Below are positions 9,907 to 42,593 of a stretch of DNA of 44,795 bases, piece by piece. The notes beneath the pieces are model-generated. The model was given only the letters and a program-made list of their open reading frames with translations, was not told the origin of the DNA and did not search any database. Every line of letters begins with the position of its first letter. Position 1 is the first letter of the stretch. The stretch is from a virus, in IMG/VR virus record IMGVR_UViG_3300049893_001343, positions 1 through 44,795 of that record. One strand, written 5' to 3'. The translations under genes and the position numbers were made by a program.

Positions 9907-10761
9907 TTAGCAATCTTTATCGCTAACGCCTAACACTAACCATCTACGCACTTGCGCCTGCAATGAACGTATGTTACCACGCAAGTCGAAGAACTCTATG
10001 TAGTCATTGGCAGTAGGTTCAGCATGATACTTAGCAAACTTATCATACAATGTGCTACCTCCAAGACTATCAACGATGTCTGCAATGTCTTCTGTTCTTT
10101 CGTGCAGTGGAATAGTCTTGATGATGAACGTGCTTAAGCGCCAATACAAATCAGTGCGGAAGGTATGCAGTAACAGTTCGTCGATGCGCTTATTAGTTGC
10201 AGCAACGATGCGACAGTTAACCTTCATCACCTTATTGTCCTCACCTACCGGCGAATACTCACGCTCCTGTAGCACGCGTAAGAGCTTAGCTTGCATATCA
10301 GGGGGCATATCTCCAATCTCATCTAGGAATAAAGTGCCGCCCCATGCAGCTTGAATCTTGCCGGGCCTATCATCAGTAGCCCCTGTGAAGCTACCTTTCT
10401 TATGCCCAAACAACTCTGACTCAATCATCTCACTCGGCAGCGCGGTGCAATTCACTCCAATGAATTTACCACTACGGCTACCATGTAAGGCGCGGGCGAT
10501 TAGCTCTTTGCCAGTGCCACTATCACCTATGATTAGCACGCTATCATCCTCAGCCTGTAATTTGCGGACAGTTACTTTCAACTGTTGGACGTAGGATGAG
10601 TGGCCGATGTATTTATCTAACCATTCTTCTGTATAAGTTGAGAACATCTTGATACCGGGGACACCGGCACGAGTGTTCATCTCCAAGATGCGCGCTTGTT
10701 CACGTTGCCCTGCTTTCCAGAATTGCAGGAGCAAATCATCTGGTCCTTTGGGTGGTGTCAT
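9907..10761 (-). CDS. Sigma-54 activator AAA+ ATPase without DNA-binding domain
   Basis: This 284-aa protein is almost only the central domain of a bacterial enhancer-binding protein. It has Walker A GDSGTGKE (79-86), the sigma-54 contact loop GSFTGA (123-128, usually GAFTGA), Walker B GTLFLDEIG (142-150) and the Arg-finger region FRTDLYWRL (201-209). GNIRSLQ (262-268) stands for the usual GNVREL. Known relatives hydrolyse ATP to remodel the closed complex of RNA polymerase and sigma-54. It lacks a receiver or other regulatory domain (only about 65 residues before the AAA+ core) and stops before the usual Fis-type helix-turn-helix. It may therefore act from solution, as reported for some activators lacking this domain, on the four sigma-54 promoters in this window. 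Confidence 0.92.
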   Translation of the reverse strand: MTPPKGPDDLLLQFWKAGQREQARILEMNTRAGVPGIKMFSTYTEEWLDKYIGHSSYVQQLKVTVRKLQAEDDSVLIIGDSGTGKELIARALHGSRSGKFIGVNCTALPSEMIESELFGHKKGSFTGATDDRPGKIQAAWGGTLFLDEIGDMPPDMQAKLLRVLQEREYSPVGEDNKVMKVNCRIVAATNKRIDELLLHTFRTDLYWRLSTFIIKTIPLHERTEDIADIVDSLGGSTLYDKFAKYHAEPTANDYIEFFDLRGNIRSLQAQVRRWLVLGVSDKDC

Positions 10762-21358: not shown

Positions 21359-21897
21359 ATATGCCACTGGACACCCCTTACGGACAGCATCTAATTACGC
21401 AAGTTGTCACTTCTTATGAAGTGCTCGGCTTAAACCCTCATGCTATCGCAGAGCAATTAGATATTGAAGAGGGCGCTGAAGGGGTAGAAGAAATATTGCG
21501 GACTAATAGTGATCTCTACGTCGCGCATTTGAGGCAGGCTGGAGCATTAGCTAAGAGGGACCCCGCTAATACAGCTATTGTTGTAACGCCAGAAGAAGCA
21601 GAGTATCAGCGTCTGAAGAAAATGTATATGATGCTCGCTGAAACAGCCCCAGAATCGTCAGTTCGTGAACGAGCTATTCGTTGGCTATTAGATGAGGCAA
21701 AGGGCCGCAATCATACTGGTGTTCGGCAAGTTGAGCTAAAAGAGCGCGAAATTGCTACACGTTCTAGCCAAGAAGAACGACTAGCTAAATTCAATGCCCT
21801 CATTCGTCAGACATTTGCTACTCAAGGGACCCCGGCCCCGAACGTAACTGTTATTGATGTCTTGCCCGAACAGCCTAAAATTGCGGACGCTAACTAA
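21331..21897 (+). CDS. terS: Small terminase subunit (putative)
   Basis: The protein is 188 aa from GTG 21331, or 178 aa from ATG 21361; the second start follows directly after the possible leader peptide and is a real alternative. An N-terminal helix-turn-helix-like part (SYEVLGLNPHAIAEQLDI) is followed by helices for oligomer formation and a charged C-terminus (RQVELKEREIATRSSQEER). Such proteins bind the packaging site on phage DNA and control the large subunit. The assignment rests on the fold pattern and its place before the large terminase. Confidence 0.7.
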   Translation: MEGELLHRLNMPLDTPYGQHLITQVVTSYEVLGLNPHAIAEQLDIEEGAEGVEEILRTNSDLYVAHLRQAGALAKRDPANTAIVVTPEEAEYQRLKKMYMMLAETAPESSVRERAIRWLLDEAKGRNHTGVRQVELKEREIATRSSQEERLAKFNALIRQTFATQGTPAPNVTVIDVLPEQPKIADAN

Positions 21898-21925
21898 ACC
21901 ACTACACCTTACACCACATCGACAT

Positions 21926-27933: not shown

Positions 27934-27950
27934 TTGGCATGGAAATTGCT
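27934..27950 (+). promoter_or_regulatory. Sigma-54 promoter of the major capsid unit
   Basis: The sequence TTGGCATG-GAAA-TTGCT fits the sigma-54 consensus TGGCAYG-N4-TTGCW with correct spacing. The predicted start is near 27961, giving a leader of about 128 bases before the capsid gene. It would boost capsid expression above the rest of the head operon. Confidence 0.87.
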
Positions 27951-28088: not shown

Positions 28089-29369
28089 ATGCCAAATGTA
28101 ATCGACTTACCTAGGGCTGCAAACCTTTGGACGGAAGTTGACAAGTCTCTCTACAATCAACTTCCGATTTATCTCGCGAAACGTCAGGTTGAGTATATTC
28201 AGGTTTGGGACACTTGGACCAAATTGCTGAAACCTCAGCCTTGGAGTCCGAACATGGGTAACATCATGAAGGGTGTTAACAAGGTTCGTTCTCCGATTCT
28301 TCGTGGACAGGCTCTTCCCAACGCAATTACTTCTCTCCCTAAGAAAGATGTAATTGAACCTCGTGAAACTTCGGAACAGGTCCAGCTTTATCGGCAGGAT
28401 TTTGAGTCGAATGTTTTCCAGTTCCTCCCTTCCTTCCAAGACTTCCTCACTGACCACATTGATGCTACGTCTGACGACATCAATGAGAAGGTGATGGTCT
28501 TTAAGGATCTATTCTACAGGACCGCGATTTTCCATGGATCCCCTAAGCTGTGGGTTTGTGGTAAGCCTACTGGAACGGAACTCACTGGTGTTGATTATTG
28601 GCGCTCTCCTACTATTGCTCTGAGCAAGACTCAGGCGATGTTGCAGGCGTTGATTGCTCAGACGACTGGTGCGCTTACTCTTGAGACTATCAAGAAGTTG
28701 GCGACGGTTGCTTACAACGATGAAGCTATCACTCCTTTCAGCGGGAAAGTTCTCCCTGATGGTAGTGATGGTTCTGGCCTTAACCAGAAGTATTGCTTGT
28801 ATATCGGTACTGAAGTTTGGGATAGCTTCACTGATACTGGCAGTTATCTGCTTAACAATCGTGCCTTGAATCTCGATGTTGTTACGTCTGGATTTACTGG
28901 TTCGTTGTTTGGTCGCTTCACTTGTAAGTTTGAGCGATTCGAAATGCGTATTGCTGCGGACGGGACTATTCCTGCTCCTGAAACTACGCAAGAGAATAAC
29001 AACGAATACAACTTTGGTGACCGCGTGATGAATCCTGCTTACGTTGCTGCTCCTATTGGTGTAGCATTCCTCGTTGGTATGGATGCTTACAAAGCTGTTA
29101 CCATTGGTGCTCCACCTAAGTATTTCTCTGACGGTGGAAGTGGTATGACGATGAAGCAGTTCCAGGGTATGGACTGGAATGGTCGTGTTAACATGACTCG
29201 TAATGTTCTTGTTCCTTCATTGGATCAGAATAACAAGGTTGTGCTTGATACTAACAAGCGTGGTGAATACTTGCAGCTTATCGCTGATGTTGCTCTCGGT
29301 ATTCTTCCCAATCAGCGTCGGAATATTATTCCGATTCTGTATCGTCGTAGTCGTATTGCCACTCAGTAA
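28089..29369 (+). CDS. Major capsid protein
   Basis: This 426-aa protein lies directly after the scaffold gene, behind its own strong promoter, and uses common codons, as expected for the most abundant virion protein. Recognisable parts are GSLFGRFTCKFERFEMR and MNPAYVAAPIGVAFLVGMDA near the C-terminal third, patterns seen in phage capsid proteins. No Shine-Dalgarno motif is present before the ATG. The fold is expected to be HK97-like, but this is not visible in the sequence itself. Confidence 0.8.
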   Translation: MPNVIDLPRAANLWTEVDKSLYNQLPIYLAKRQVEYIQVWDTWTKLLKPQPWSPNMGNIMKGVNKVRSPILRGQALPNAITSLPKKDVIEPRETSEQVQLYRQDFESNVFQFLPSFQDFLTDHIDATSDDINEKVMVFKDLFYRTAIFHGSPKLWVCGKPTGTELTGVDYWRSPTIALSKTQAMLQALIAQTTGALTLETIKKLATVAYNDEAITPFSGKVLPDGSDGSGLNQKYCLYIGTEVWDSFTDTGSYLLNNRALNLDVVTSGFTGSLFGRFTCKFERFEMRIAADGTIPAPETTQENNNEYNFGDRVMNPAYVAAPIGVAFLVGMDAYKAVTIGAPPKYFSDGGSGMTMKQFQGMDWNGRVNMTRNVLVPSLDQNNKVVLDTNKRGEYLQLIADVALGILPNQRRNIIPILYRRSRIATQ

Positions 29370-29404: not shown

Positions 29405-29989
29405 ATGAATAAAACGTTTCTTAAATTGTGCGCGGTTGGACTTAGTGCTGTTTTGGCTAGCTTTATGGTTAGTCAAGCTGCTACTATTGTCTACACTATC
29501 CCTTCTGGGACTACGGCGTGGAACGCTACTAACTTGATTAGTGGCGCTGCCCGCATTACTGCGATTAGCATCAACACTGGCGCTGCTGGTGGTGTTACTA
29601 ATCTCACCTACGCGTTTAATGATTTCCCTGGCTTTAATGCTGCTAATGGCTGGGGCAATATCATGCAAACGAATAGTGGTTACATGGCAGTTGGTCAGTA
29701 TACGACGAACATCCTCAAGATTCAGACGAATTTTGGTGGTGTTTATACTAATGCTGACGGCACTACTAATTGGATTACGGTTAGTAATGCACTCTGGGTG
29801 TATACCAATTACGTTGGTGCGACCAGTAATGCTTGGCGTGTTGTGGCGTTTGGAACTGTTGGTTCTAACTCTACTGCTACGCTGACGTTGCCGTCTGGTG
29901 GTATTCCCGTTATCTATGGTCTCGGGTTTACCAACAATAACATTGGTGTCGGTAGCACGATTACTATCACCTATAATCCGTCGCTCTAA
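29405..29989 (+). CDS. Exported Asn/Thr-rich protein co-expressed with capsid
   Basis: This 194-aa protein begins with a complete Sec signal peptide: positive MNKTFLK, hydrophobic LCAVGLSAVLASFMV and a cleavage site SQA-A near residue 26. The mature part is a beta-rich Thr/Asn/Gly protein (TGAAGGVTNLTYAFNDFPGF) ending TITITYNPSL, similar to surface adhesin-type folds. It has a good Shine-Dalgarno motif (AGAAAGGAC). It shares a promoter with the capsid gene and is followed by a terminator, so it should be made in similar amounts. Decoration protein or exported surface protein are both possible. Confidence 0.75.
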   Translation: MNKTFLKLCAVGLSAVLASFMVSQAATIVYTIPSGTTAWNATNLISGAARITAISINTGAAGGVTNLTYAFNDFPGFNAANGWGNIMQTNSGYMAVGQYTTNILKIQTNFGGVYTNADGTTNWITVSNALWVYTNYVGATSNAWRVVAFGTVGSNSTATLTLPSGGIPVIYGLGFTNNNIGVGSTITITYNPSL

Positions 29990-30004
29990 TCTTCCAGAGA
30001 ATTC

Positions 30005-30086
30005 AGCAACGAGTCGATGCGTTGCTGTGGTGTGGTGGTGATGAGTTTTGGCTGTTCTCATTAAAAAACAGCCACTTTTTAATTTT
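30005..30086 (+). terminator. Tandem hairpins with T-tract ending the capsid transcript
   Basis: A first stem AGCAACG/CGTTGCT (30005-30026) is followed by TGGCTGTT/AACAGCCA (30049-30074) and then CTTTTTAATTTT. The second is a classical intrinsic terminator on the plus strand, 60 bases behind the exported protein gene. Confidence 0.85.
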
Positions 30087-30103
30087 CCCATATCTTACCT
30101 CAT

Positions 30104-30472
30104 ATGATTTTCCCTGGAATTGAATTGCGGACGCCTTATCAGTTGCTTCAATCGTTAGTGATGGGGCAAGAATTATTGGTGCAAGATCCAATTATCTTCG
30201 CAGCGGCCGGCCTTATCCTTCCTTCTAAACGTTTAGTCGGTATTCGAACTCTTGAAAATGTTGGAACTGTATCTGTTTTTTGGCGCATTGGTGGTGCTCC
30301 TAGTGCTGGCAGTTTTCATGGAGTTCTCAAAGGCTGCACAGTTGCCAATGACGGCACAGGCGGATTTGTGGATCTCAGTCGTTTTGTTGGGGATGTTTAC
30401 ATTGCTCCTACTACTGGCTCTACTTGTAACGTGGTAGCTTTCCAAGCGTTGCCTAAAGAAGCTCAGAGTTAA
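30104..30472 (+). CDS. Hypothetical virion-region protein, 122 aa
   Basis: No family is recognised. The beta-rich sequence includes LENVGTVSVFWRIGGAPSAG, then YIAPTTGSTCNVVAFQALP. Such short beta proteins are common among phage head or fibre accessory proteins. It has no signal peptide. It is the first gene after the capsid terminator, with no sigma-54 site before it, so it depends on read-through or another promoter. Confidence 0.6.
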   Translation: MIFPGIELRTPYQLLQSLVMGQELLVQDPIIFAAAGLILPSKRLVGIRTLENVGTVSVFWRIGGAPSAGSFHGVLKGCTVANDGTGGFVDLSRFVGDVYIAPTTGSTCNVVAFQALPKEAQS

Positions 30473-30477
30473 CTGAC

Positions 30478-31083
30478 ATGAGACCACCTATTCTTAAAGC
30501 TTGGAATAGAACTGCTATCCAATTTCGGGGCATCTATTCCAATCGTTATGGGATTGGTTCTCAGACTGGTGGTAGTAGTGGAGGCGGTAGTGGCGGTGAG
30601 ATTTCTGTTGTTCAAGGTGATAACTTTGAATTTAATTTTGACGGAGATATTACGCGGTTTTATTTAAAAGATGATTTTGGAGATAATTATTTAATTGATA
30701 TTGTAGACGTTGCAGGCGATTATCAAATTGAAATAGCGGCAGCAGCTGGTGGCTTGCCATCATCTGCTCCACCACCAGTGTTTGCCGGTAACTATGTTTT
30801 TTGTATTGATGCTTACCTACGTTTTCATATAGATGGTAGTGGTGGTATTAATTCTAGCTATATTGCTGTAAACTCAGATGGCTCGGCTACACCAGTTATC
30901 GAAGATCCAGCGGTAGCTAATACTGCAATTAAATCTACTACGACATATAAGGTTGGTTCGAATTTTGAGATTGTCGGCACCAAGTTTTATTTCAAGGATA
31001 TGCTAGGTAATGTTTATTATCCAATCATTGTCGAAGATACTCCTGGAAATTATGTGCTTCAATTAACTGCTGGTTACTTATGA
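30478..31083 (+). CDS. Hypothetical fibre-type protein with internal repeat, 201 aa
   Basis: A Gly/Ser linker (GGSSGGGSGGE, about 32-42) separates a basic N-terminus from a beta-rich body. Two related units are visible: GDNFEFNFDGDITRFYLKDD (start of the first) and GSNFEIVGTKFYFKDMLGN (start of the second), each ending in G-D/N-Y-x-x-x-L/I. It is likely a structural or fibre accessory protein. Its stop overlaps the next start (ATGA). Confidence 0.6.
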   Translation: MRPPILKAWNRTAIQFRGIYSNRYGIGSQTGGSSGGGSGGEISVVQGDNFEFNFDGDITRFYLKDDFGDNYLIDIVDVAGDYQIEIAAAAGGLPSSAPPPVFAGNYVFCIDAYLRFHIDGSGGINSSYIAVNSDGSATPVIEDPAVANTAIKSTTTYKVGSNFEIVGTKFYFKDMLGNVYYPIIVEDTPGNYVLQLTAGYL

Positions 31084-32783
31084 TGAAAAAATTACTTGCT
31101 AGTTTTTGTCTTTTACTCCCACTTTTGGGTTATTCCCAAACTCGAACTGTTGGTGTTAATAGTTCTGGCGTGCTAACTGCGCCTAGTAATTTTAAGGGAA
31201 CTAATTTTCAGCAAAACAATATTATATATTGTGACCCCATCAATGGAAATGACACTACGGCGCAATATGGAACTATCAATGCATATGCCGGCATTTCCAA
31301 TGCTTTCCGTGCAGTAGTTAATAATACTACCCTCCGTATCCGCGGCTTGAATACTGTTGGGACGATTGGTTATGGAACCAACGCGCCGCTGAAATTGTAT
31401 AGTCTTACGAATGTTGTTATTGAAGGCGAGGGAGGTGCTATCATTCAGGCTGGTGGTCTTGGAAGTCTTATTGCAATGGGCTTCTGTTCAAATGTTGTTA
31501 TTCGTAACCTCGAATTTTCGGGCGTTTTAACCAATAATCAACTTGGCGGACAATCAGGTTCTATTTGGATTGAGGGTGATAGCTCTGATGTTAGACTTGA
31601 GAATACGATTCATCGTAAGTGGATTAACCAAGCTTTTGTTACATATCGTCATCCAGACGCTGGATGGGGCTATGAAAGATTTGCAGTAAGAAATAATTTG
31701 TTCGAGTATGTTGGCTTTACTAACTACTCTGGTATTCAGCCTAATGATGGAACAGCTGTAGTTGTGTGTGGAAATTTTGTGGATATAACTGATAATTATT
31801 TTCGTTATAATCTACGCGATATCGAGACTTTTACTCATACCGATGCGCTTCCTGACCAAGTTTGGAAACATTATCGAATTACAGGGAATATTAGTGAGGG
31901 AGCCATTGAGGAGTTTTTAGCTCAAGGAGCTACGAATGTCCAGAACTGGGTTGTAGCTAATAATGTCGTGAAGATGTATGCTACGAATCGGACAGCTAAT
32001 GCTGCTCCACAAAAGGCTACCACATGGTATGGAGGGAAGAATATTGTTTTTGCTAATAATTCAATTAGCGGAGCTGAGTATGCGATGTTGTTCAAAGCGG
32101 ATAATACTGCTTTCTATGAGGATTGGAATATTCATAACAATCTTTTTACCGACATTGGAAATCACGCTATTTATCCAATCGTGAAAGCCGTTGGATACGA
32201 TAATCAATACAAACGGATTGCCATTGATAATAATATTTTCAATGTCATCGGTGGCTATGCCATTCTTGGTGGTTTCAGCGATGGAAGTATTCGAAACAAT
32301 ATTTTTGTAGACGTTGGAACAAACGGCCCCAATAATCGAGTTATCTCTTTTGGCACTTCTACGCTAGCCGATGGTGGTGGTTTTGCTATTACTAATAGCA
32401 CGAATACAACTATTAGTGGAAATATCATCGTTAATAGTTCTGCTTCGACAGCCTATACAGATGGAACGATTGTTGTTACTGATCGTGCTTATAGTATGAA
32501 TGTGCGAGATAACACTATCTTAGCTGGTTCTGCTCCTGTTATCAATTCGGCTGCCTATGGCCCAAGCTCCAGAGCTGGTAGTGTTACACTTAGTTCTGGC
32601 CTAGCTACTGTCAATACGACACAAGTGTTCACTAATAGTTACATTTTCCTACAACCAGTAGCTACGGCAAATGCAGTTGCTGCCGTTTGTGTTACTAATA
32701 GAACTGCTGGAACTAGCTTTCAGATTCGTTCAACGAGTAACACAGATGGTAATCGAGTTGATTGGTTTATTGCTTCTCCTTAA
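31080..32783 (+). CDS. Exported right-handed beta-helix protein
   Basis: This 567-aa protein starts with a Sec signal peptide (MKKLLASFCLLLPLLGYSQ; ATG 31080 or the next ATG 31083). The body has many short repeated turns such as NVVIEGEGGAIIQAG, NVVIRNLEFSG and IRNNIFVDVGTNGP, the pattern of pectate-lyase-like parallel beta-helices. These are found in tailspikes and polysaccharide lyases. No catalytic residues can be assigned. A tailspike with a cleavable signal peptide is unusual; a secreted polysaccharide-acting enzyme is the alternative. Confidence 0.78.
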   Translation: MMKKLLASFCLLLPLLGYSQTRTVGVNSSGVLTAPSNFKGTNFQQNNIIYCDPINGNDTTAQYGTINAYAGISNAFRAVVNNTTLRIRGLNTVGTIGYGTNAPLKLYSLTNVVIEGEGGAIIQAGGLGSLIAMGFCSNVVIRNLEFSGVLTNNQLGGQSGSIWIEGDSSDVRLENTIHRKWINQAFVTYRHPDAGWGYERFAVRNNLFEYVGFTNYSGIQPNDGTAVVVCGNFVDITDNYFRYNLRDIETFTHTDALPDQVWKHYRITGNISEGAIEEFLAQGATNVQNWVVANNVVKMYATNRTANAAPQKATTWYGGKNIVFANNSISGAEYAMLFKADNTAFYEDWNIHNNLFTDIGNHAIYPIVKAVGYDNQYKRIAIDNNIFNVIGGYAILGGFSDGSIRNNIFVDVGTNGPNNRVISFGTSTLADGGGFAITNSTNTTISGNIIVNSSASTAYTDGTIVVTDRAYSMNVRDNTILAGSAPVINSAAYGPSSRAGSVTLSSGLATVNTTQVFTNSYIFLQPVATANAVAAVCVTNRTAGTSFQIRSTSNTDGNRVDWFIASP

Positions 32784-32788
32784 TTTTT

Positions 32789-33064
32789 ATGGACGCTCCA
32801 GTTACTAACGCGCAGACTACTACACAAATTCAAACAACCCAAAACCCTGATTCTTCATTCTATGGAATCTCTGTTAGGGCTTGGCTCGCTATCCTTCTGG
32901 TTCTCACTGTTTGTTTTTGTCATGCAGCAGTTGTTATTGCAGTCCTCGTGGAGGCGGTTAAAAACAGAGATTTTGCCAAAGTCGGAACCTATACAACTAT
33001 CAGTGAACCGTTGTATACGTTGGTCATTGGAGCCGTCGCTTACTACTTTGGCCAAAAGAAATGA
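32789..33064 (+). CDS. Two-helix membrane protein, holin candidate
   Basis: From ATG 32789 this 91-aa protein has a polar Thr/Gln N-terminus, a first membrane helix (AWLAILLVLTVCFCHAAVV) and a second hydrophobic segment (LYTLVIGAVAYYFGQKK) with a positive tail. Size, two helices and a charged end suit a class II holin, but no lysin gene is visible nearby. The end overlaps the next start by 4 bases. Confidence 0.6.
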   Translation: MDAPVTNAQTTTQIQTTQNPDSSFYGISVRAWLAILLVLTVCFCHAAVVIAVLVEAVKNRDFAKVGTYTTISEPLYTLVIGAVAYYFGQKK

Positions 33065-33381
33065 GTAGTGCACTTATAGGTAATCAGCCACTAGGTGGCT
33101 ATGTTACTGACCAGATAGGTGTTCTATTCACCAACATGGGAACTGCTCCTGTGCTGTGCACTTTGCTAGAGTTCAATAACAATTCAACAACTGACGATGT
33201 TGTCCTCGAAGTCTTTCAGCCTGATGGTAACGTAATGGTCCGCGTTAAACGTTCAGTGCTTGATGCAGGCTATACTGAACAGCAAGATGTAGAGCGCATT
33301 GTATGTGTCGGTGAGTCGCTTGCTGCAAGGGCTTCAGTAGCGAACACTATTCAATGGCGAGTGAATTTGCGGGCGCTATGA
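33061..33381 (+). CDS. Hypothetical virion-region protein, 106 aa
   Basis: The start overlaps the membrane protein stop (ATGA). A beta-rich sequence with VLFTNMGTAPVLCTLLEFNN and EVFQPDGNVMVRVKRSVL suggests a small structural domain. No family is recognised and there is no signal peptide. Confidence 0.6.
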   Translation: MSSALIGNQPLGGYVTDQIGVLFTNMGTAPVLCTLLEFNNNSTTDDVVLEVFQPDGNVMVRVKRSVLDAGYTEQQDVERIVCVGESLAARASVANTIQWRVNLRAL

Positions 33382-33384
33382 TTT

Positions 33385-33567
33385 ATGCTTTACGATGCGG
33401 AAGGGCGTCTAGTAATTGGACTAAGCGATACTTATGTTCGAACGAAGAATGGTAAGCTACAGCTAAAGAATATCTCTGACGATTTGTGGTATGACCTTAT
33501 CTTGCAAAACGATGCTGAAACTGGTAATCCTGTGCTTGGTGTCTCTAATTCCGGTGAAGGTGAGTAA
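33385..33567 (+). CDS. Small phage protein with LKN-type motif, 60 aa
   Basis: The product MLYDAEGRLVIGLSDTYVRT continues KNGKLQLKNISDDLWYDLIL. The Gly-x-Leu-x-Leu-Lys-Asn...Trp pattern is seen in small proteins near phage tail genes. Its last 19 codons overlap, in another frame, the signal-peptide part of the next gene. Confidence 0.55.
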   Translation: MLYDAEGRLVIGLSDTYVRTKNGKLQLKNISDDLWYDLILQNDAETGNPVLGVSNSGEGE

Positions 33568-35254
33568 TGCACAGGGTTTTGCTGGCGTTACTTACAATAC
33601 AACTAATGCACGTATTCAAGCGCCCCGCTCGTTTTTCTTTACTAACATTTTGATGGGAACGAATATCGTCATTTACACGAATGGGAATGGAACTATTACC
33701 ATTGCCGGAACTGTAGTTGGGGGAGGTTCTGGAGATGCTGGTGGAACTAATGCTAGACAGTATGGTTCTTTGAACCTAACGAACTGGTCTCTCTATACTA
33801 CAAATGTTCTTGGCGATACTGCCACAAACGCTGCTCGTAATATCGGCACTATTGTCAGTAATGGAGTTATTACTGAAGTTATCACTTCATCGAATAATCT
33901 TTACGCTACAGAATCAACTCGAAATGCAGCTGTAAGTAACGGTGCAGTTAGCTTTACGATGACAGCCTCGAATAATCTCTACAGCACTGAAACTACTCGA
34001 AATGCCGCAGTTAGTAATGCAGTCATTGCGGAGATTATTACATCGTCTAATAATCTGCGAACTACGTTCGTAGCTAACGATACGACTACATCAAATGGAT
34101 TGTTGACAATCATTAATCCAAAACAGTTTGGTAGTGCCTCGCTTACGAATCTATCCGGTAATCCTAATGTTGTGACGAATATTTTGGGAGCTGGAACAGT
34201 AACAGTTACGAGCAATAATCAGGGCACTTTCACCATTACTGGCTCTGGAGGTGCTGGAAGTGTTCCAGTTGAACTGACGAACATTATTGTGTATGGCTCT
34301 AGTTCTAGCACAACTAATTTAACTGTTCGCCAGACAATTGGACAAACAGCTCCGATGCTTGCAGTTCGTGGCACTAACGGAACTATGTTGAGTGGTTTTG
34401 ATGAACATGGCCATTTAATTCTGTCTAACCTTGTTTCGACATTGCCGATAACTAATACTGTTGAAATTGATGCTGAAGATTTTGGACGCCTAAATCCGAT
34501 GTGGATTGATAGTTTGAGCAATCGTTATGCTTTTGGCTCTGCTATGTGGTCAACTAGACAAATTTGGTTTAGGCCTGGATCAAGTGCAAACCTTAGTTTT
34601 ACGGGTAGTTATCCAGTGACAAATGGTGGCTGTACTGTTTCCACTCCTGCGATTACTGAAGAATGGCCTCTTATGGCCCAGTTTGCTTCGGGAGCAACAA
34701 GTAATAATAGTGCATCTTGCTTCACTGAATTAGCTGTGGCTTATCGTGGAACCAAGACTGGTGCGAATGGATTCTTCTTTTCAGCTGAATGGGGAATCAC
34801 AAATGGTGTTATTGAATTTGGTGGTGGCGGTCTAGGCGTTTTTGTTGGACTTAGTGATGTAGCTGCGGCTAGTCAGACTAATATGGCTACGACTACTAAT
34901 TTAGCTAGCACTCGCTATGCTGGATTTGCTGTTCATAGTCAATTAGGTTCTGGCGCGACGAACTGGCATTTCATCACAAAAGATAATAGTGGTGCAAATG
35001 AAACGCGCACTGTTACACCATTACCACTGTTAGCGAGTAATATTTATCGTGGACAAATTTATTGTGGGCCACAAGCAGGTATCTTTGCAGTTCGTCTTGA
35101 TAATCTTACTACACAACAAAGCACAAACTTTTATGTTAGTTCAGTGCTTCCTACTAATGCACTTCGAGCTGGATTTGCTATAGCCAACAGGACTAATCGT
35201 ATTCATGCGATTCGTATGAGTAGTCTCTATCTTGAATCACCTTTGCGACCATAA
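33512..35254 (+). CDS. Exported repeat fibre protein
   Basis: From ATG 33512 this is a 580-aa protein with signal peptide MLKLVILCLVSLIPVKVSNA followed by mature QGFAGVTY. A shaft region has about four degenerate repeats of some 27 residues (ITSSNNLYATESTRNAAVSN type), suggesting a trimeric fibre. The C-terminal half is a beta-rich head (VEIDAEDFGRLNPMWIDSLS and following). The signal peptide is encoded across the 3' end of the 60-aa gene in another frame. A GTG start at 33559 would remove it and cannot be excluded. It is probably an adhesin-like tail fibre or exported surface protein. Confidence 0.7.
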   Translation: MLKLVILCLVSLIPVKVSNAQGFAGVTYNTTNARIQAPRSFFFTNILMGTNIVIYTNGNGTITIAGTVVGGGSGDAGGTNARQYGSLNLTNWSLYTTNVLGDTATNAARNIGTIVSNGVITEVITSSNNLYATESTRNAAVSNGAVSFTMTASNNLYSTETTRNAAVSNAVIAEIITSSNNLRTTFVANDTTTSNGLLTIINPKQFGSASLTNLSGNPNVVTNILGAGTVTVTSNNQGTFTITGSGGAGSVPVELTNIIVYGSSSSTTNLTVRQTIGQTAPMLAVRGTNGTMLSGFDEHGHLILSNLVSTLPITNTVEIDAEDFGRLNPMWIDSLSNRYAFGSAMWSTRQIWFRPGSSANLSFTGSYPVTNGGCTVSTPAITEEWPLMAQFASGATSNNSASCFTELAVAYRGTKTGANGFFFSAEWGITNGVIEFGGGGLGVFVGLSDVAAASQTNMATTTNLASTRYAGFAVHSQLGSGATNWHFITKDNSGANETRTVTPLPLLASNIYRGQIYCGPQAGIFAVRLDNLTTQQSTNFYVSSVLPTNALRAGFAIANRTNRIHAIRMSSLYLESPLRP

Positions 35255-35276
35255 TGGATAAGTTTTAGGGGAAACT

Positions 35277-35501
35277 ATGGAAAACTTAGTTGTTAAAATA
35301 GCCGAGCAAGTTCCAAATCTTGGAATCTTGGGCCTTATTGTTTACTTCTTCCTTAGCCATTTGGCTAGGCGAGATGAGGTTTTGCGAGATCTGCACAAAG
35401 AACATATTGACGAGAGGCAGAAAACTCGTGATGTAGTAAAAGAAAACACGGACAGTAACAAAGAGTTGATTCGTGTAATCAACAAAATCAAAGGAAGCTA
35501 A
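35277..35501 (+). CDS. Single-helix membrane protein with coiled coil, holin/spanin-like
   Basis: This 74-aa protein has a short N-terminal part, one membrane helix (LGILGLIVYFFLSHLA) and a charged coiled-coil tail (RRDEVLRDLHKEHIDERQK). This resembles BhlA-type holins and inner-membrane spanin subunits. A good Shine-Dalgarno motif (TAGGGGA) lies before the ATG. With the lipoprotein at 37273 it could form a lysis pair, although the two genes are not adjacent. Confidence 0.6.
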   Translation: MENLVVKIAEQVPNLGILGLIVYFFLSHLARRDEVLRDLHKEHIDERQKTRDVVKENTDSNKELIRVINKIKGS

Positions 35502-35508
35502 GCACATT

Positions 35509-36624
35509 ATGAAAAACACCATCCTACTAATTGCTGGCATTTTACTCGGATATGTTGTTCCGAGTAAGTCTCAATTTGTCGTTACGCCATTTCGCGTTCA
35601 GTATGTTACGAATGGAACTTTTATCCAAGCGCGCTGTTCATATTTGCTGGATACAACGAGAGATTATGTTGGTGAGCAGATTGATACAAGTGGAAAGAAA
35701 ATCCGTAATGTTGGTTTAGCTACTGTCACCACTGGCGGGGGCACTGCAATTAATAGTGCACAGATTCAGTCTAGTATTGTGCAGCCTGTTGTTAACGCCA
35801 CTCTTTACAGAATTATTGACGTAACTGGTGCGTCGGCAAGTCGAATTGCTGAGTTGCGTGATATTCCAGTATCGATTTATCCGCCAAGTGCAAGTCTTGT
35901 TCCGTCTGGAATTCCAGCTTACAAGACCACGTTGAGCAAAGGCGTGTTCTCGTTGACAGCTGAACGCAAGTTTGGTGAGTGGTTCTTGCTTGAAGAATTT
36001 CGTTATGGTGTTTGGCAACAAGCTCGTTGGATGCCTATTGGGGGCAAGGCTACTGTTATCCTTGGTCAGCGTTATATTGGAACTGGTGAACCTCCTACTT
36101 GGCGAGTTAGTAAGTGGAAGATTGGAAATGCTGTTCCGATGCCACCAACGCCTGCAAATTTTAGTTTTACCCCTTCTGAAGCTTATGTCGCGCCTTTATC
36201 CACATTTGCTGCAGCAGATGAACAAAGTGTTATTATTACCACAAATATTGTTGATAAGTATTACGATAACACAAATGGTTTGTTTTATGCTTGGGCTTGG
36301 CAACGCTCATTTAAGGCGTTGCTTTTTGAAGATGCAGATGAACCTACTGGACCTTGGACTGAAAGAGCTTATTGGAGTTGTTATAATATTGACCAGTTAA
36401 TTGTGGCAGCTTTTAATGGCGCGCTACAAAAACGCTATGTGCGAGCTAGGCTGGTTGATGATTGCGGGCAGGGCACTTTTGTTCCAAGTGAAGATATTAT
36501 GCTCGGAGAGAATATTCAAATTCCAACTTCTAGTGGACCTAAAGCTGTCGCTAGACTTGTCTCACCTAGGATGCGTTTGTCTCCGGGCGTAACGCTTTAT
36601 TTAGCGATGCATCCACACAAATAA
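35509..36624 (+). CDS. Exported structural protein with -1 frame continuation
   Basis: This 371-aa protein starts with a signal peptide (MKNTILLIAGILLGYVVPSK, cleavage near SQ-F). The mature part is beta-rich (FRVQYVTNGTFIQARCSYLL), with aromatic segments typical of fibre or receptor domains. Its stop at 36622-36624 is followed, in the -1 frame, by 44 more protein-like codons that end at an ATGA overlap with the next gene. So the natural product may be about 415 aa, made by frameshifting, or the stop may be a recent mutation. No function is recognised. Confidence 0.68.
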   Translation: MKNTILLIAGILLGYVVPSKSQFVVTPFRVQYVTNGTFIQARCSYLLDTTRDYVGEQIDTSGKKIRNVGLATVTTGGGTAINSAQIQSSIVQPVVNATLYRIIDVTGASASRIAELRDIPVSIYPPSASLVPSGIPAYKTTLSKGVFSLTAERKFGEWFLLEEFRYGVWQQARWMPIGGKATVILGQRYIGTGEPPTWRVSKWKIGNAVPMPPTPANFSFTPSEAYVAPLSTFAAADEQSVIITTNIVDKYYDNTNGLFYAWAWQRSFKALLFEDADEPTGPWTERAYWSCYNIDQLIVAAFNGALQKRYVRARLVDDCGQGTFVPSEDIMLGENIQIPTSSGPKAVARLVSPRMRLSPGVTLYLAMHPHK

Positions 36625-36755
36625 TTTACCCCAGTCAACAAAGTAACAATGAAAGGATTCCTCCTTACAATGTTGGAGAAGTGTATCGGGTCGGAGTTTG
36701 GAACACTACTGGTCCGACAGCATCCCTGTCGGCTGGGGTAATTAACTTTATATGA
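36621..36755 (+). other. -1 frame extension of the preceding exported protein
   Basis: Read in the -1 frame this stretch encodes IIYPSQQSNNERIPPYNVGE, then VYRVGVWNTTGPTASLSAGV, then INFI and TGA. The frame has no usable start codon of its own near its beginning and is open back to 36570. The TGA overlaps the ATG at 36752, the same coupling seen for real genes here. No canonical X-XXY-YYZ slippery heptamer is seen. Confidence 0.55.
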
Positions 36756-36979
36756 AAAAACAAACTAAGTCTCTTACGTTTGGTGTGAAAGGGAAGGAGC
36801 AAGATAATCGTTGGTATTCCCATTCTCAAGGACGAATTAGTAATCACCACTATAATAATCGTTCTACGGCCATTACCCAACTTGGACGTTATCTGAGGAA
36901 AATTATGGAAGGTGATTTCAAGTTCGAGGGGATGACACCAAGAGAACAGGCGAAATTAGAAAAGATTCTTACGTCCTAA
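36752..36979 (+). CDS. Hypothetical basic protein, 75 aa
   Basis: The product begins MKKQTKSLTFGVKGKEQDNR, is basic in the first half (with several His) and has a helical end (MTPREQAKLEKILTS). It does not carry a signal peptide. It overlaps the -1 frame stop of the previous gene by ATGA. No family is recognised. Confidence 0.55.
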   Translation: MKKQTKSLTFGVKGKEQDNRWYSHSQGRISNHHYNNRSTAITQLGRYLRKIMEGDFKFEGMTPREQAKLEKILTS

Positions 36980-36985
36980 AGCAAC

Positions 36986-37267
36986 ATGAAATTTCCGTTA
37001 ACGCTACTAGTCTTGTTGGGAGTTAGCGCCGCCGTTTTCGGCGTTAATTCGCCGCGACCTTCAAGCTTTAGCGTTAACGAATCTAATCTTGTTATCACTT
37101 GGACTAACCTCAGTACTAACCACGGATGGATTGTAAGCTACAAAGATGGCATGACAAATGCTTGGTTATGGGAGAATCAGCGATTAGAGGCTATGGGCGG
37201 GACGCTTACTATCATTAGACCTATGACCGAGCCAATTAGAATGTTTCGTTTGTGGCCCTCACCTTAA
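36986..37267 (+). CDS. Small exported beta-domain protein, 93 aa
   Basis: A signal peptide (MKFPLTLLVLLGVSAAVFG) is followed by a short beta domain: LVITWTNLSTNHGWIVSYK, then AWLWENQRL and the end IRMFRLWPSP. The order Trp, Tyr-Lys, Trp, Phe-Arg-Leu recalls the repeated secreted domains common in Verrucomicrobiota and relatives, which suggests that the gene came from such a host. The function is unknown. Confidence 0.65.
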   Translation: MKFPLTLLVLLGVSAAVFGVNSPRPSSFSVNESNLVITWTNLSTNHGWIVSYKDGMTNAWLWENQRLEAMGGTLTIIRPMTEPIRMFRLWPSP

Positions 37268-37272
37268 CTATT

Positions 37273-37548
37273 ATGATTAAACTATTACCATTGTTTGCGT
37301 GCGTGGGACTTGTTGGATGCACTACGGTTAAAATTACCCAAAAAGATGAAAGCCCAGAAAGAACAGTCGTTACAGACGTTAAGGCAACCGCGTGGTTCTC
37401 GTCCAGCCAGAACATCACGAAAATCAAGACCAGCCAGACCGACAAGACCCAGTCGACAGGCACCGAAGGAGTAACACAACAGGGTGCTACTAATGTTGTT
37501 GAAGCATTAAAGGCTATCAACGATATCTTAGGCAAAGTTCGTCCTTAA
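37273..37548 (+). CDS. Lipoprotein, possible outer spanin or surface lipoprotein
   Basis: From ATG 37273 this 91-aa protein has a type II signal peptide, MIKLLPLFACVGLVGCTT, with lipobox LVGC and the modified Cys at 16. The mature part is polar and Ser/Thr/Gln-rich (SSQNITKIKTSQTDKTQSTG), then helical. Phage lipoproteins are usually outer-membrane spanin subunits or superinfection-exclusion proteins. It overlaps no neighbour. Confidence 0.72.
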   Translation: MIKLLPLFACVGLVGCTTVKITQKDESPERTVVTDVKATAWFSSSQNITKIKTSQTDKTQSTGTEGVTQQGATNVVEALKAINDILGKVRP

Positions 37549-37561
37549 CAAAAGACATATC

Positions 37562-38743
37562 ATGAGTCGCGATTACTGGATGACAAGGCGCAAGACGCCT
37601 ATCATTGATAAGCTGAAGCAGACGATTACTATTCCTAACACGAATATTGAACAATGTTTTATCAATCGTTCTTCTGTTTATGGTAATGGCGGTAACGATT
37701 GTGATGTTGCGAGTAATGTTAGTGGCACGATTAGTTTAACCGATAACATCACTATTGAGTGTTGGGTTAAAGTATTACCTAAGGCTGGCGCTACAGACGC
37801 ATATCTTGTGCGCTTTTATGGTACAGCTTCTAGTTTATCTTTTTACGTTTCTTTTACGTCAAATGGTGCAATGGTTGAAGTTATTGGTGGTAGTGTAACT
37901 TATCCAACTGCTATTTTACCCATGAATGAATGGGTGCATTTAGCTACTACGTTTGATCACGCCGGAGAAGGTAAGATTAGATTGTATGTGAATGGATTGC
38001 TGGCTGACACCGAAAATACTGCTGGTGTACTTGCTACTGGCTTAGACCGTTATATTTTGAATCACGACAATACTGCCTTTTCGTTTATTGGTTATGTAGC
38101 AGAAGTTCGCATGTGGGATGTTGCACGTTCGGCAGGGCAAATTTATGCTGCGTATAATAAGCCACAAGGCTTAATCGGTGTTGCGCCTAATTTGTTATGT
38201 TACGCTCGCGTAAATGATGCTAGTGGTTCAACTGTAAGTGCAACTAATGGTGACTTAGTCGGGACACTTGAAGTAAATAATTCATGGTCAGTTAGTGAAT
38301 TTCCTCCTTTAATCTACGGAGCATCATTCGTTGTAGCTGAGTGGGCTATTACACTTAGTAATAACGTGTCACTTCAATGGCCCTTAACAATGCCAGATGA
38401 TACTACTGGTATGTTATGCGTTAGGTGGACTGATAGTGATAATGAAGTTCAACGCCGGCGCCTTTGGGATTTAGACGGTGTTGACATTGCTCCATTTCCT
38501 GAACTTTATGCGGGTGAGAATCTTGGCAGTAGTTTCACTATTGAACTATGGAATATCGACGGTGAAAATACTTGTGAACTGACTGAAGACGTTACGCTAG
38601 GTATTAGCTACTGCACTAATCCAACTACGTCATACGATCGCACACGTCAAGCTGCGACAACTGTAACCACTGATTCAACACTTGCTGCCAATTTCCCTCT
38701 AACCCCATTTCCTCTTACTTTCGATACTCAACAAACGTATTAA
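37562..38743 (+). CDS. LamG/concanavalin-like lectin-domain protein
   Basis: This 393-aa protein contains a laminin G-like jelly-roll domain at about residues 45-200. Its marks are ITIECWVKVLPKAG, the core MNEWVHLATTFDHAGEGKIR, LYVNGLLADTE and the end IGYVAEVRMWDVARS. Such domains bind sugars. The C-terminal 170 residues are another beta-rich part. It is probably a receptor-binding or fibre-tip protein of the virion. It has no signal peptide, unlike its left neighbours. Confidence 0.82.
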   Translation: MSRDYWMTRRKTPIIDKLKQTITIPNTNIEQCFINRSSVYGNGGNDCDVASNVSGTISLTDNITIECWVKVLPKAGATDAYLVRFYGTASSLSFYVSFTSNGAMVEVIGGSVTYPTAILPMNEWVHLATTFDHAGEGKIRLYVNGLLADTENTAGVLATGLDRYILNHDNTAFSFIGYVAEVRMWDVARSAGQIYAAYNKPQGLIGVAPNLLCYARVNDASGSTVSATNGDLVGTLEVNNSWSVSEFPPLIYGASFVVAEWAITLSNNVSLQWPLTMPDDTTGMLCVRWTDSDNEVQRRRLWDLDGVDIAPFPELYAGENLGSSFTIELWNIDGENTCELTEDVTLGISYCTNPTTSYDRTRQAATTVTTDSTLAANFPLTPFPLTFDTQQTY

Positions 38744-38746: not shown

Positions 38747-39886
38747 ATGGCTGCACAATTTGATTTTATTGCTGGACTAGATATTAGCAGTTTGACGTCT
38801 GTTACTCAGGCGCAACTGATGCAGATGATTAACCAGATTGCTCCTTTGAGTAATATTGGTGGCGTCATCTTTCAGGCTGGAACTTCTCTCAATACAACCA
38901 TTGCGCAAGGAACTGGTGGTTCTCCAGACGTAACTAACAATCCTCGATTCGTTCGTTACATTTGGCTAAACACTTACTCTGCCGCTTCTGCGCCCCCGAC
39001 TGCATACTATTATGATGCGTCAACTGGAGACTGGACCTCTACTAGCGTTGCGGCAGGGAGTATTACTAACGCGAGCATTAACGCTGCGGCAGCAATTGCT
39101 GTATCCAAACTAGCTACGGGCACGGCACGTTATTTAGTTCGCACTAATGCTGCTGGAACTAGTGTTGAATATGTTGCTCCTGCTAGTATCTTCTCTGCTG
39201 GCGAAATGCCCATTGCTGGCTTAGTTCCGAATGGTAGTAATGGTTACCTGAAAACTTCTAGTGGCGTAGCTACTTGGGTTGATGATGCTACTGAACGTGC
39301 GTTGATTCAGTCTGCTATTACTGGCTTGTCTGTTAGCCAACTTACAGCGGGCAGTAATGGAGCTATTCTTTACGTAGCTGCTGGAACTCCTACATGGGGA
39401 GCGCCTGCTACTGCGTTGGCTGCTGGTAGTAATATCCCACTTGGTGCTTTAGCTCAAGGTGGAGCTACTACACGACAGCTGTTACAGTATGATGGTTCTA
39501 GTTGGGCTCCAGTTACACCATCGTTGCAGATTAATGCAACTACAGCTATTTCAGCAAGTGGCACTGTATCTCCTACTGGTAATATTTCGAACGCTGTTCA
39601 TACTATTCCACATTCTTTAGGCGCAATTCCTAAAATGGTTCGTGTTGTTTTGAAATGCTTATCAACTGAAGGTGGTTGGGCGGTTAATGATGAGGTTGAT
39701 ATTGCCAATTCTTACTATGATACTGGTGCTAGTATTGTTCCTAACATTACTGTAGGTAGTGATGCAACTAATATTACTGTTCTTATTAATCAGACTGCTA
39801 CTAAGAAACTAAGGAATAAGACTACAGCAGCTGTGTTTACTCCTACTGATGCCAATTGGCAGCCTAAAGCCTACGCTTGGGCCTAA
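38747..39886 (+). CDS. Tail fibre/appendage protein
   Basis: This 379-aa protein has a low-complexity Ala/Thr/Ser/Gly shaft with repeated patterns (GSNGYLKTSSGVATWVDDA and GSNGAILYVAAGTPTWGAP), typical of trimeric tail-fibre stalks. A beta-rich C-terminal domain begins with AVHTIPHSLGAIPKMVRVV. The His-Ser-Leu-Gly segment is common in phage fibre tip modules. It follows the LamG protein gene by 3 bases. Confidence 0.75.
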   Translation: MAAQFDFIAGLDISSLTSVTQAQLMQMINQIAPLSNIGGVIFQAGTSLNTTIAQGTGGSPDVTNNPRFVRYIWLNTYSAASAPPTAYYYDASTGDWTSTSVAAGSITNASINAAAAIAVSKLATGTARYLVRTNAAGTSVEYVAPASIFSAGEMPIAGLVPNGSNGYLKTSSGVATWVDDATERALIQSAITGLSVSQLTAGSNGAILYVAAGTPTWGAPATALAAGSNIPLGALAQGGATTRQLLQYDGSSWAPVTPSLQINATTAISASGTVSPTGNISNAVHTIPHSLGAIPKMVRVVLKCLSTEGGWAVNDEVDIANSYYDTGASIVPNITVGSDATNITVLINQTATKKLRNKTTAAVFTPTDANWQPKAYAWA

Positions 39887-39898: not shown

Positions 39899-40861
39899 AT
39901 GCCACTCCAAGATATTCTATTAGATATCTCAAAAGACTTAGGTCAGCCTGCTAATCAAGCAGAGACTGACATGCGAATCATTGATATCAATAATGCTGTT
40001 CGTGAAATACATGCAGCATGCGATTTACCCGAGAGTATTAAGGAGGAGATTTTCGATATCAATCTTCCGTCGCAACAAGTTGTTCTTCCTGCGCATATTG
40101 ACAAGATTCTAGGGATGCGCTATTGCGATACTCGCTTAGCTATTGACCGCGATAGTGCAGCGAATCGCTACAATTACCAGAACATGGGTGAGCATGAAGT
40201 TTGGTATTTGCAATGGCGTAGTAGGGGATGGTCTGCTCTGAGCCGCGAAATTCAGAATCAGTCTGTCCTTACGCTTAGGTTTCCTACTGGCTTAAGCAAT
40301 GGAGCAGCCTTCACTATAACCATCACTGGACAGACTGATAAGTCGCGTAGAATAAGTGAGACGTTAGCATTTAGTGCAACTGATAACACGAAAACGTCGG
40401 CGCAGAATTGGATATCTGTTGAGTCAATTGTTAAGTCTACGCTTACGCAATATGATATCATAGTAGAAGACCCTGATGGTAACGAAATGGCTGTGTTGCC
40501 TAACAGTGAGTATCAATCGTTGTATCAAAACTATCAGCTCTACGATACCGACTCGTTTGCTAATCCTCAGAATCAGTCTGGCGTTGAAGTTCTGTTCAAA
40601 CATAAGTTCTTTCCGTTCAAGAATAACCAAGATACTTACTTCGGAACAGACCGATATGATAAAGCGTTCTATTGGAAATTCATGGAATTGCGAGCTAAGT
40701 CTATCGAGACTGCGCAAGCGTATCATGCTAAGTGCCGCCAAGTTATTGTTGATGCGCTTAGTGACCACGAAAGAACTGTTAAACGCAAAATCAATTTCTC
40801 TCGCGTAACATTCTGGGATTTACCTTACACTAAATATACCAATGCTTACAGCTCCAGGTAA
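39899..40861 (+). CDS. Head-tail connector/adaptor (tail tubular protein A-like)
   Basis: This 320-aa protein starts with an alpha-helical adaptor-type part (DILLDISKDLGQPANQAETD, then DINNAVREIHAACDLPE) and continues with beta-rich and helical segments. Its place directly before the nozzle gene with a 20-base overlap is that of the podovirus ring protein between portal and nozzle. The motif evidence is modest, so the call depends on order. Confidence 0.68.
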   Translation: MPLQDILLDISKDLGQPANQAETDMRIIDINNAVREIHAACDLPESIKEEIFDINLPSQQVVLPAHIDKILGMRYCDTRLAIDRDSAANRYNYQNMGEHEVWYLQWRSRGWSALSREIQNQSVLTLRFPTGLSNGAAFTITITGQTDKSRRISETLAFSATDNTKTSAQNWISVESIVKSTLTQYDIIVEDPDGNEMAVLPNSEYQSLYQNYQLYDTDSFANPQNQSGVEVLFKHKFFPFKNNQDTYFGTDRYDKAFYWKFMELRAKSIETAQAYHAKCRQVIVDALSDHERTVKRKINFSRVTFWDLPYTKYTNAYSSR

Positions 40862-42593
40862 CAATCAGCAGACTAACTATTTCTCGCAAGGAGATTTTAG
40901 TGGTGGTATGCGTCGGAATGTAGATCCGGCGCAATTGGAAGATAATGAGTATGCTCTGTTGATGAATGGTCGGACACGTTATGGAACAATTCGAACCATT
41001 AAGTTACCGACTAATTTAACCACTGAATTGCCGAGCGGGACATATCAAGGGCTATATGGATACGGTAAATATCTGATTGCGTTCATTGATGGTAAAGCAT
41101 ACGTCCGCGATTATAGCCTTAACAATAACCAGTTCTATCTACTCTCAAACTTTCAGATGAACGCTAGCGTAGCTACGATTTACGCTGAAGCTGTTGAAGC
41201 TAGCTGGATGAATTATGAACGTAGACAATCAGTAAATGGACAAGCTGATAGCGAAGTGAATCTATTTACCAATGTAGCTGGAACACCATCTTGTTTAGTC
41301 TGTCAAGATGGAATGAATAGGCCCCGCCTCATCTTCCCAGACGGAAATTCGCGGCCAGCAAAGACGTTTGCAGAGTGGCAGAATACTAATGATGTCAATA
41401 GCGATGAACGTGAGTATGTTCCTATTGGCAAACAGATGCTTAATTTCGATGGCATTTTGTATATTGTATCTGCTGATGGAACACAAATCTATCGTAGCGT
41501 AACCGGACGCTTCCTCGATTTCGTTGTAGCTATTGACGTTAACGGCAATAAACTTCCTCCTCTCCAAAACTCTGCCGAAGAAGCTAGTCGATTGAGCTAT
41601 CGAGTTGACTTTAATCCTATTACTTGTATTGCTGCTCTGCCTAGCATCCCCATTAACCCACAACAAGGGGCCGGCTTTTACGTTGGAACCAGTCAGACTA
41701 GCTACATCGTATTGCCTAATTATGCTGACAGTATTTATGGTGAGCCTACGTTCAGCAAACAGACGTTGTTTGAAACTGGTCCATTGAATCAGTTCTCAGT
41801 TGCGGACATTTCTGGAGATACTGCTATCATCGACGCTGCTGGTATGGTATCCTTCAATGCTGTATTACAGTTGAGGAATGAAGGTCGCAATGCTCCATTC
41901 CATGATGAGATTCATGACCTATTCAAGAACATAACGCAGACTACGACTGCTGCTTACACATTTGATAATTACGCTCTATTCGGAGTAGATACAATCTTCG
42001 GGCCGGGCATCTTAGTATATGATACGATGCGGCGTAAGTATGTTAGCCTTGACCAATATCCTGAAGTTAGTGGATACATCGTTCAGTTCGCTGAGATTAA
42101 AGTTAACGGCATCCATCGTCTATTCTTTCGCACGTCAACTAACCAGTTGTTTGAAGCGTATGGAAGTAGCACTACTGCTACAGTCTCTCTTTACACTCGG
42201 GAGATGTCAGTAGATGACGAACCTGAAGTTGAAGCAACACCCAAACGATTAAGGTTAGTGTTTGAGGATGTAGTAGAAAGTGGCACAGTAAATGCTACAG
42301 AGTATGTTGATCGTAAAGTTGGCACTACTCGTAGTGTTGACGTAGATATTACAACAACTCCACCAACACCACCTTTAACGCCCCCGTTTGGGACACCATC
42401 TGATGTTGACACAACTCAAGTTAAGTCAATTCCCTTTGAGTTATCAAGAAAAGGTGATAAGTGCGGTTTGTGGTTACAGTGGTCAATGGAGTCAGACCTT
42501 ACGAAATTTGTTCTTGTCCAGGAGGCCGAGCGCGGAATCGTTAGCGAAGAAGAGCAAGGCGTCCAGTTTGCTAATACTAAGGGAACTCTGTGA
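40842..42593 (+). CDS. Tail nozzle protein (tail tubular protein B/gp10-like)
   Basis: This 583-aa protein begins with the signature FSQGDFSGGMRRNVDPAQLE, followed by DNEYALLMNGRTRYGTIRT, which is typical of podovirus nozzle proteins. The rest is rich in short beta strands consistent with a propeller-type ring. It ends with a Pro/Thr hinge (TTTPPTPPLTPPFGTP) and a beta C-terminus. It would form the tube tip through which DNA leaves. Confidence 0.82.
   Translation: MLTAPGNNQQTNYFSQGDFSGGMRRNVDPAQLEDNEYALLMNGRTRYGTIRTIKLPTNLTTELPSGTYQGLYGYGKYLIAFIDGKAYVRDYSLNNNQFYLLSNFQMNASVATIYAEAVEASWMNYERRQSVNGQADSEVNLFTNVAGTPSCLVCQDGMNRPRLIFPDGNSRPAKTFAEWQNTNDVNSDEREYVPIGKQMLNFDGILYIVSADGTQIYRSVTGRFLDFVVAIDVNGNKLPPLQNSAEEASRLSYRVDFNPITCIAALPSIPINPQQGAGFYVGTSQTSYIVLPNYADSIYGEPTFSKQTLFETGPLNQFSVADISGDTAIIDAAGMVSFNAVLQLRNEGRNAPFHDEIHDLFKNITQTTTAAYTFDNYALFGVDTIFGPGILVYDTMRRKYVSLDQYPEVSGYIVQFAEIKVNGIHRLFFRTSTNQLFEAYGSSTTATVSLYTREMSVDDEPEVEATPKRLRLVFEDVVESGTVNATEYVDRKVGTTRSVDVDITTTPPTPPLTPPFGTPSDVDTTQVKSIPFELSRKGDKCGLWLQWSMESDLTKFVLVQEAERGIVSEEEQGVQFANTKGTL

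Follow-up and report, generated by a model that had tools for sequence, protein, structure and literature searches.

Assembly of tailed phages is taught as an entirely cytoplasmic process. Here we describe a block of genes for proteins with secretory (Sec) signal peptides, lying among the virion genes of an uncultured lineage of tailed, podovirus-like phages represented by the IMG/VR record IMGVR_UViG_3300049893_001343; this linear record of 44.8 kb was analysed over its whole length (positions 1 to 44,795) and is called the window below. Between the inferred capsid gene and the tail genes lie 12 genes with products of 80 amino acids (aa) or more; 6 of these encode Sec signal peptides, one of them belonging to a lipoprotein, and the block recurs across the phage family. 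The explanation we favour, at a probability of roughly 0.45, is that Sec-exported accessory parts of the particle, such as decoration, fibre and spike proteins, would meet the virions at lysis. A broader form of this proposal, which we advance tentatively and with less assurance, is that a tailed-phage lineage completes its particles outside the cytoplasm, with Sec-exported decoration, spike and sometimes fibre proteins joining fibreless particles at lysis, and with the fibre switching its mode of assembly as a signal peptide is acquired or lost.

Signal peptides between the capsid and tail genes

Signal peptides were called with a rule-based scorer (charged n-region, hydrophobic h-region of 7-15 residues, small residues at -3 and -1), which, like the gene caller, was home-made. 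The observed 6/12 is far above chance, since the scorer fires on only 3.1% of shuffled N-termini. The approximately 49 remaining genes listed in the window yielded 0 plausible signal peptides and 2 weak calls, both at doubtful starts. A preliminary description of this DNA had noted six signal-bearing N-termini and two interspersed membrane proteins, and had regarded their position among virion genes as unexpected; the scorer recovered the N-termini (6/6), hydropathy supports both membrane proteins, and the unexpected location is borne out. All 5 non-lipoproteins satisfy the Sec/signal peptidase I rules of the scorer, and the remaining protein, encoded at 37273, satisfies the lipobox criterion (a short hydrophobic core followed by [LVI][ASTVI][GAS]C) as LVG/C, where the slash, here and below, marks the predicted cleavage site.

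Relatives were gathered through alignment of the terminase, giving 80 related loci, roughly 25 of them having terminase, portal and capsid in common with the window, and through alignment of the capsid protein, giving 34 loci. Both anchors of the interval were present in 21 contigs, namely the window and 20 related IMG/VR records, and in these the signal peptides occur in 75/189 genes of the capsid-tail interval versus 3/183 outside it (Fisher p=1.8e-22), so that looking for the cluster in further phages, as had been suggested earlier, gives a positive answer. ATG-only gene calling leaves the same enrichment. Close relatives differ strongly in the exported genes that the block contains, apart from the gene directly behind the capsid gene, termed SP1 here. 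Scanning IMG/VR with the capsid, terminase or 31080 protein singly returned no matches, the relatives having required alignments, and tblastn against INPHARED with the whole cluster and with the portal and tail genes returned none either. A comparable block was not found in Akkermansia phages, which have at most two signal peptides and these not as a block behind the capsid gene, or in other verrucomicrobial prophage loci; the verrucomicrobial siphophage P8625, with a host of the same probable phylum as the present phages, has no predicted signal peptide (PMC4642752). The block therefore looks like a trait of the present lineage.

Signs of genuine export

Judged from sequence, the signal peptides look like real export signals. 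Gln occupies position +1 in 35/96 predicted cleavage sites versus 3.1% Gln in the mature chains, and Gln at +1 is a known preference of signal peptidase I in some bacteria (PMC5837995). The mature exported chains, of the window (29405-37267) and of relatives (L086-L137), are poorer in Lys and Arg than other phage proteins and richer in the dipeptide Thr-Asn, which occurs 5.6 times per 100 aa in SP1, 2.6 times in the other exported proteins and 0.3-0.6 times in unexported phage proteins (p=1e-12). The order of the two residues matters, Thr-Asn being present at 2.6-3.2 times expectation and Asn-Thr at 0.8-0.9 times. As the enrichment is confined to the reading frame (661 versus 19 and 44), with normal codon choice, the effect acts at the protein level and a DNA motif is ruled out; a general trait of the host secretome is likewise ruled out in the sampled hosts (observed/expected 1.06). 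The preference could reflect a modification site or a structural habit. Disulphide bonding as a reason for export is unsupported, Cys not being enriched.

The gene behind the capsid gene and its promoter

The inferred major capsid protein (28089..29369, +) has no signal peptide, and its gene follows TerL-, portal- and scaffold-like genes and is conserved in 26 related loci. SP1 (29405..29989, +; N-terminus MNKTFLKLCAVGLSAVLASFMVSQA/AT) is the next gene, lying 36 nucleotides (nt) 3' of the capsid gene in the window and 6-64 nt 3' of it across loci, and its product joins a Sec signal peptide to a beta-sandwich of approximately 169 aa. It belongs to a single conserved family of ~160-200 aa beta-sandwich proteins, every detected member of which bears a signal peptide. 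Such members were found in 35 of the 39 loci with a readable next gene (34 by script, and that of L089, missed by the gene caller), a fraction that overstates the independent cases, as the 39 loci include near-duplicates. The family went undetected in L112 and in a distant clade (L105, L108 and L018; capsid identity 28%), whose post-capsid gene is unexported and apparently unrelated to SP1; kinship of SP1 to that gene or to the window's gene at 30104 was not detectable. The AlphaFold model comprises a signal helix and a beta-sandwich (predicted local distance difference test, pLDDT, 75; predicted template-modelling score, pTM, 0.59). Its best viral Foldseek matches are small unnamed phage beta-sandwich proteins at E~1e-4, with virus jelly rolls among the weaker ones, and the model is compatible with, though not proof of, a decoration- or fibre-like protein.

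A sigma-54 type promoter, TGGCATGGAAATTGCT (27935..27950, +), is situated ~139 nt 5' of the inferred capsid gene, and the strict form TGGCAY-N5-TTGCT stands 102-186 nt 5' of the capsid gene both here and in many relatives, including ones whose capsid identity is as low as 28%. The window contains five strict -24/-12 promoters, at 21171 and 27935 (+) and at 9866, 15783 and 18197 (-), and 49 sites with at most 2 mismatches versus 25 expected (a number reached in 0/100 shuffles). It also encodes a protein with the AAA+ domain of sigma-54 activators (9907..10761, -; PF00158, E=3.8e-58), a domain encoded in 29/30 relatives. The late genes of the phage family thus seem to be expressed by way of sigma-54. 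Given the promoter before the capsid gene and the activator in 29/30 relatives, the capsid protein and SP1 are probably made together, late in infection.

A tail-fibre family with and without signal peptides

The tail-fibre protein of the window (38747..39886, +) has no signal peptide, whereas five of its homologues (in L087, L089, L102, L113 and L122) carry one; the 15 other members compared start at Met. The family matches tail fibres by sequence and fold, its relatives reaching phrog_892 with E down to 1.4e-23 and the Pfam Collar domain PF07484 with E=1.4e-18, and it resembles a further tail-fibre family, phrog_28766; all five exported members match tail-fibre PHROGs. The window's copy itself matches only phrog_2012 (minor tail protein, E=2.6e-5), and its model is poor overall (pTM 0.34), with the C-terminal domain alone being usable.

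The mature N-terminus of the five exported fibres aligns with the Met of the 15 unexported ones, such that the signal peptide ends where the unexported protein starts, and a profile built solely from unexported fibre N-termini finds the exported fibres from residue 17-33 onward. The same profile detects one fibre copy per contig, so that the exported form is the sole copy. Thr-Asn content is higher in all five exported alleles than in any of the fifteen unexported ones. In a tree of the fibre gene the exported alleles group as one clade, whereas the capsid tree requires at least 4 changes, and by this comparison the exported allele has probably moved between phages. We argue that the exported fibre would still serve the particle, because its N-terminal domain is kept, it is the sole copy and it adjoins the tail genes.

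Modules of the other exported proteins

SP2 (31080..32783, +; MMKKLLASFCLLLPLLGYS/QT) has a signal peptide, a beta-helix-like body and a K1-lyase C-terminal tailspike domain (PF24146, E=4.1e-17, 62.9 bits versus a curated cut-off of 27), and also matches phrog_24355 (E=3.6e-8); its homologue in L110 likewise bears a signal peptide. No particle-binding head domain was found in SP2 with Pfam or PHROG, its N-terminus being occupied by the signal peptide. SP3 (33512..35254, +; MLKLVILCLVSLIPVKVSNA/QG) is a fibre-like repeat protein rich in Thr-Asn, the signal peptide of which is intact from 33512 or from an alternative start at 33491 and is present in its L110 homologue as well. SP4 (35509..36624, +; MKNTILLIAGILLGYVVPSKS/QF, with Gln at +1) has a 350-aa body with a weak match to the tail collar family phrog_31611 (E=0.019), and SP5 (36986..37267, +; MKFPLTLLVLLGVSAAVFG/VN) joins a signal peptide to a short domain, 93 aa in all.

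Across the family the exported proteins carry K1-lyase_C, GDSL esterase, beta-helix, laminin-G, GH43-like and collagen modules, and those of relatives include tail-fibre PHROG matches, some of which were possibly helped by low-complexity sequence. Modules of this sort are typical components of the receptor-binding proteins and depolymerases of phages. A 1153-aa exported protein in a relative (L093:13423-16884, -) combines, behind a signal peptide, a GDSL esterase with a K1-lyase_C tailspike domain.

The lipoprotein (37273..37548, +; MIKLLPLFACVGLVG/CTT, lipobox LVGC) matches phrog_902, a PHROG of unknown function (E=1.6e-4), and has exported homologues in L087 and L102, with lipoboxes LVG/C and TVG/C; it is probably a lysis or surface lipoprotein. 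Together with a holin-like membrane protein (32789..33064, +; best 19-residue hydropathy 2.87; homologue in L134) and a single-transmembrane protein that is a possible lysis component (35277..35501, +; best 19-residue hydropathy 1.72), it looks like a lysis cassette. These three genes, and five soluble ones without signal peptides (30104, 30478, 33061, 33385 and 37562), make the earlier view of the whole block as one system too broad. The labels of capsid-partner, beta-helix and fibre-like protein, given in that account to the exported set, do not suit the lipoprotein or the 93-aa SP5, which is of unknown kind, and its open-ended list of functions is narrowed by the present evidence to exported proteins of decoration, fibre and spike type.

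Possible fates of the exported proteins

Under the explanation that we favour, the sigma-54 promoter would drive the capsid gene and SP1 late in infection, the remainder of the block probably being included. The capsid, portal and tail core would remain in the cytoplasm, while SP1 and the proteins resembling tailspikes, depolymerases or lectins, joined in some relatives by the tail fibre, would pass SecYEG, lose their signal peptides to signal peptidase I and fold once in the periplasm. As no outer-membrane export signal was seen on inspection of the soluble exported proteins, they should wait there, accumulating until the holin and lipoprotein lysis genes open the envelope, and could then attach to the released particles as decoration, fibre or spike. 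The P22 tailspike, the T4 fibres and Soc/Hoc are examples, from several phages, of spikes, fibres and decoration proteins that can join particles in vitro, which makes joining at lysis feasible.

Several points weigh against this explanation. The model of SP1 is only moderately confident and had no match below 1e-3 in the PDB. The assignments of the capsid and tail-tube-like genes are positional, with 0 hidden Markov model matches for either. The contrast in composition within the fibre family counts as one event rather than five, because the exported alleles form one clade, and matches of the phrog_892 type may be helped by Thr-Asn-rich repeats. We infer export, waiting in the periplasm and attachment from sequence, which is a weakness as to attachment above all. 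Finally, the enzyme and lectin modules (PF24146, GDSL lipase, GH43 and laminin-G) fit equally well with proteins that act free.

This last alternative, the main rival, which we regard as possible though less likely than the favoured explanation, holds that the exported proteins never join the particle: being periplasmic and released at lysis, or else reaching the surface, they would act in soluble form, as lectins, esterases and depolymerases, to remove capsule or slime, to cover debris and neighbouring cells, or to occupy receptors and thereby spare progeny from being wasted. For the enzyme-bearing exported proteins it is nearly as good an explanation, and it gains from the highly variable gene content among close relatives and from SP2, which begins with a signal peptide and lacks a recognisable particle-binding head. 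Against free action stand the linkage of SP1 with the capsid gene in almost all genomes and an exported fibre that is the only copy and retains the N-terminal domain of its unexported counterparts, as expected if particle binding persists.

An unlikely reading is that the proteins modify the host surface before lysis, bringing about superinfection exclusion in the manner of the outer-membrane proteins and lipoproteins of lysogenic conversion. Phage lipoproteins and outer-membrane proteins offer a known precedent, the proteins here are exported and one is a lipoprotein, and an ability to modify the host has been ascribed to signal-peptide proteins of Porphyromonas phages (PMC10367356); yet the genes lie directly 3' of the capsid gene, the sigma-54 promoter precedes both capsid and SP1, and the inspection of the soluble exported proteins disclosed no beta-barrel or outer-membrane signal. 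Still less likely is that the hydrophobic N-termini are membrane anchors, wrong starts or assembly peptides removed by a phage protease, as proposed for Porphyromonas phage capsid proteins with predicted signal peptides (PMC10367356), and that the proteins are cytoplasmic virion parts in keeping with cytoplasmic assembly; against it stand the -3/-1 sites and the Gln at +1, both characteristic of signal peptidase, the presence of a lipobox within the block, the difference in mature composition with exported status and the persistence of the enrichment with ATG-only calling.

Relation to known systems

In the Inoviridae, particle proteins are Sec-exported and assembled outside the cytoplasm; the present phage differs in being tailed, with terminase, portal-like and fibre genes, and no inovirus gene was seen in it. 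Tailspikes and depolymerases of the PF24146 type share their C-terminal domain and beta-rich body with SP2 and the L093 protein, both of which start with a predicted cleavable Sec signal peptide instead of a recognisable head domain. Tail fibres (phrog_892, phrog_28766 and Pfam Collar) are like the 38747 family by sequence and fold, and the five exported homologues differ from them in the Sec signal peptide immediately before the N-terminal domain. The Nixviridae of Porphyromonas gingivalis likewise have phage Sec signal peptides fitted to a host preference for Gln at +1; there they occur in five genes of unknown function in prophages, and here in a conserved capsid-linked block with fibre and spike modules (PMC10367356). 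A tailed phage with exported fibres was not found in the literature on signal peptides of phage virion proteins, as searched with subscription journals mostly uncovered.

If the favoured explanation is true, Sec can belong to the morphogenesis of tailed phages, periplasmic chemistry (glycosylation, N-terminal pyroglutamate and oxidative folding) is open to phage surface proteins, and the lineage is a source of naturally secreted depolymerases. If the proteins act free, a phage-made secretome would be released with each lysis, which is relevant to ecology.

Lineage, host and remaining genes

The gene order runs from minus-strand early genes to TerS-like, FkbM methyltransferase, TerL, portal-like, scaffold-like and capsid genes, the signal-peptide block and the tail genes, the names of capsid, portal and tail genes resting on gene order and conservation. 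Among named phages, those of Akkermansia have the nearest terminases (30% identity, E=1e-34), and bacterial genomes scanned with a terminase profile gave matches mainly in Verrucomicrobiota, from which, and on the terminase only, the host phylum of the family is probably Verrucomicrobiota. Capsid relatives were absent from the genome-contig scan and from 388 Verrucomicrobiota genomes. Gln at +1, the Q-rule of Bacteroidetes, does not settle the host, being seen at 36% of sites in the phages, 13/61 in the sampled Verrucomicrobiota and ~71% in Bacteroidetes (PMC5837995).

Within the capsid-tail interval, the products of genes without signal peptides include a 122-aa possible decoration protein (30104..30472, +), a 201-aa repeat protein (30478..31083, +), a 106-aa protein (33061..33381, +) and a laminin-G-like lectin protein (37562..38743, +; PF13385, E=5.6e-18), the family of which has a signal peptide in 0/23 members. 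Two tail genes (39899..42593, +), provisionally named as tail-tube-like and conserved in relatives, formed the downstream anchor.

The FkbM-type methyltransferase (21854-22654, +; PF05050, E=1.8e-13) lies between TerS and TerL, and the block of L087 contains a methyltransferase unrelated to it. DNA polymerase A is seemingly split, with the exonuclease and the start of the polymerase domain at 2545-4074 and the remainder at 1228-2310 (-), the two parts (1228-4074, -) being separated by a 104-aa open reading frame. A tRNA-Leu (taa) gene is present at 16267-16354 (-). For most start codons throughout the window no clear Shine-Dalgarno sequence is evident; T occupies -1 in 28/38 cases, with an A-rich stretch from -3 to -8 and often ACT or CTT immediately 5' of the ATG.

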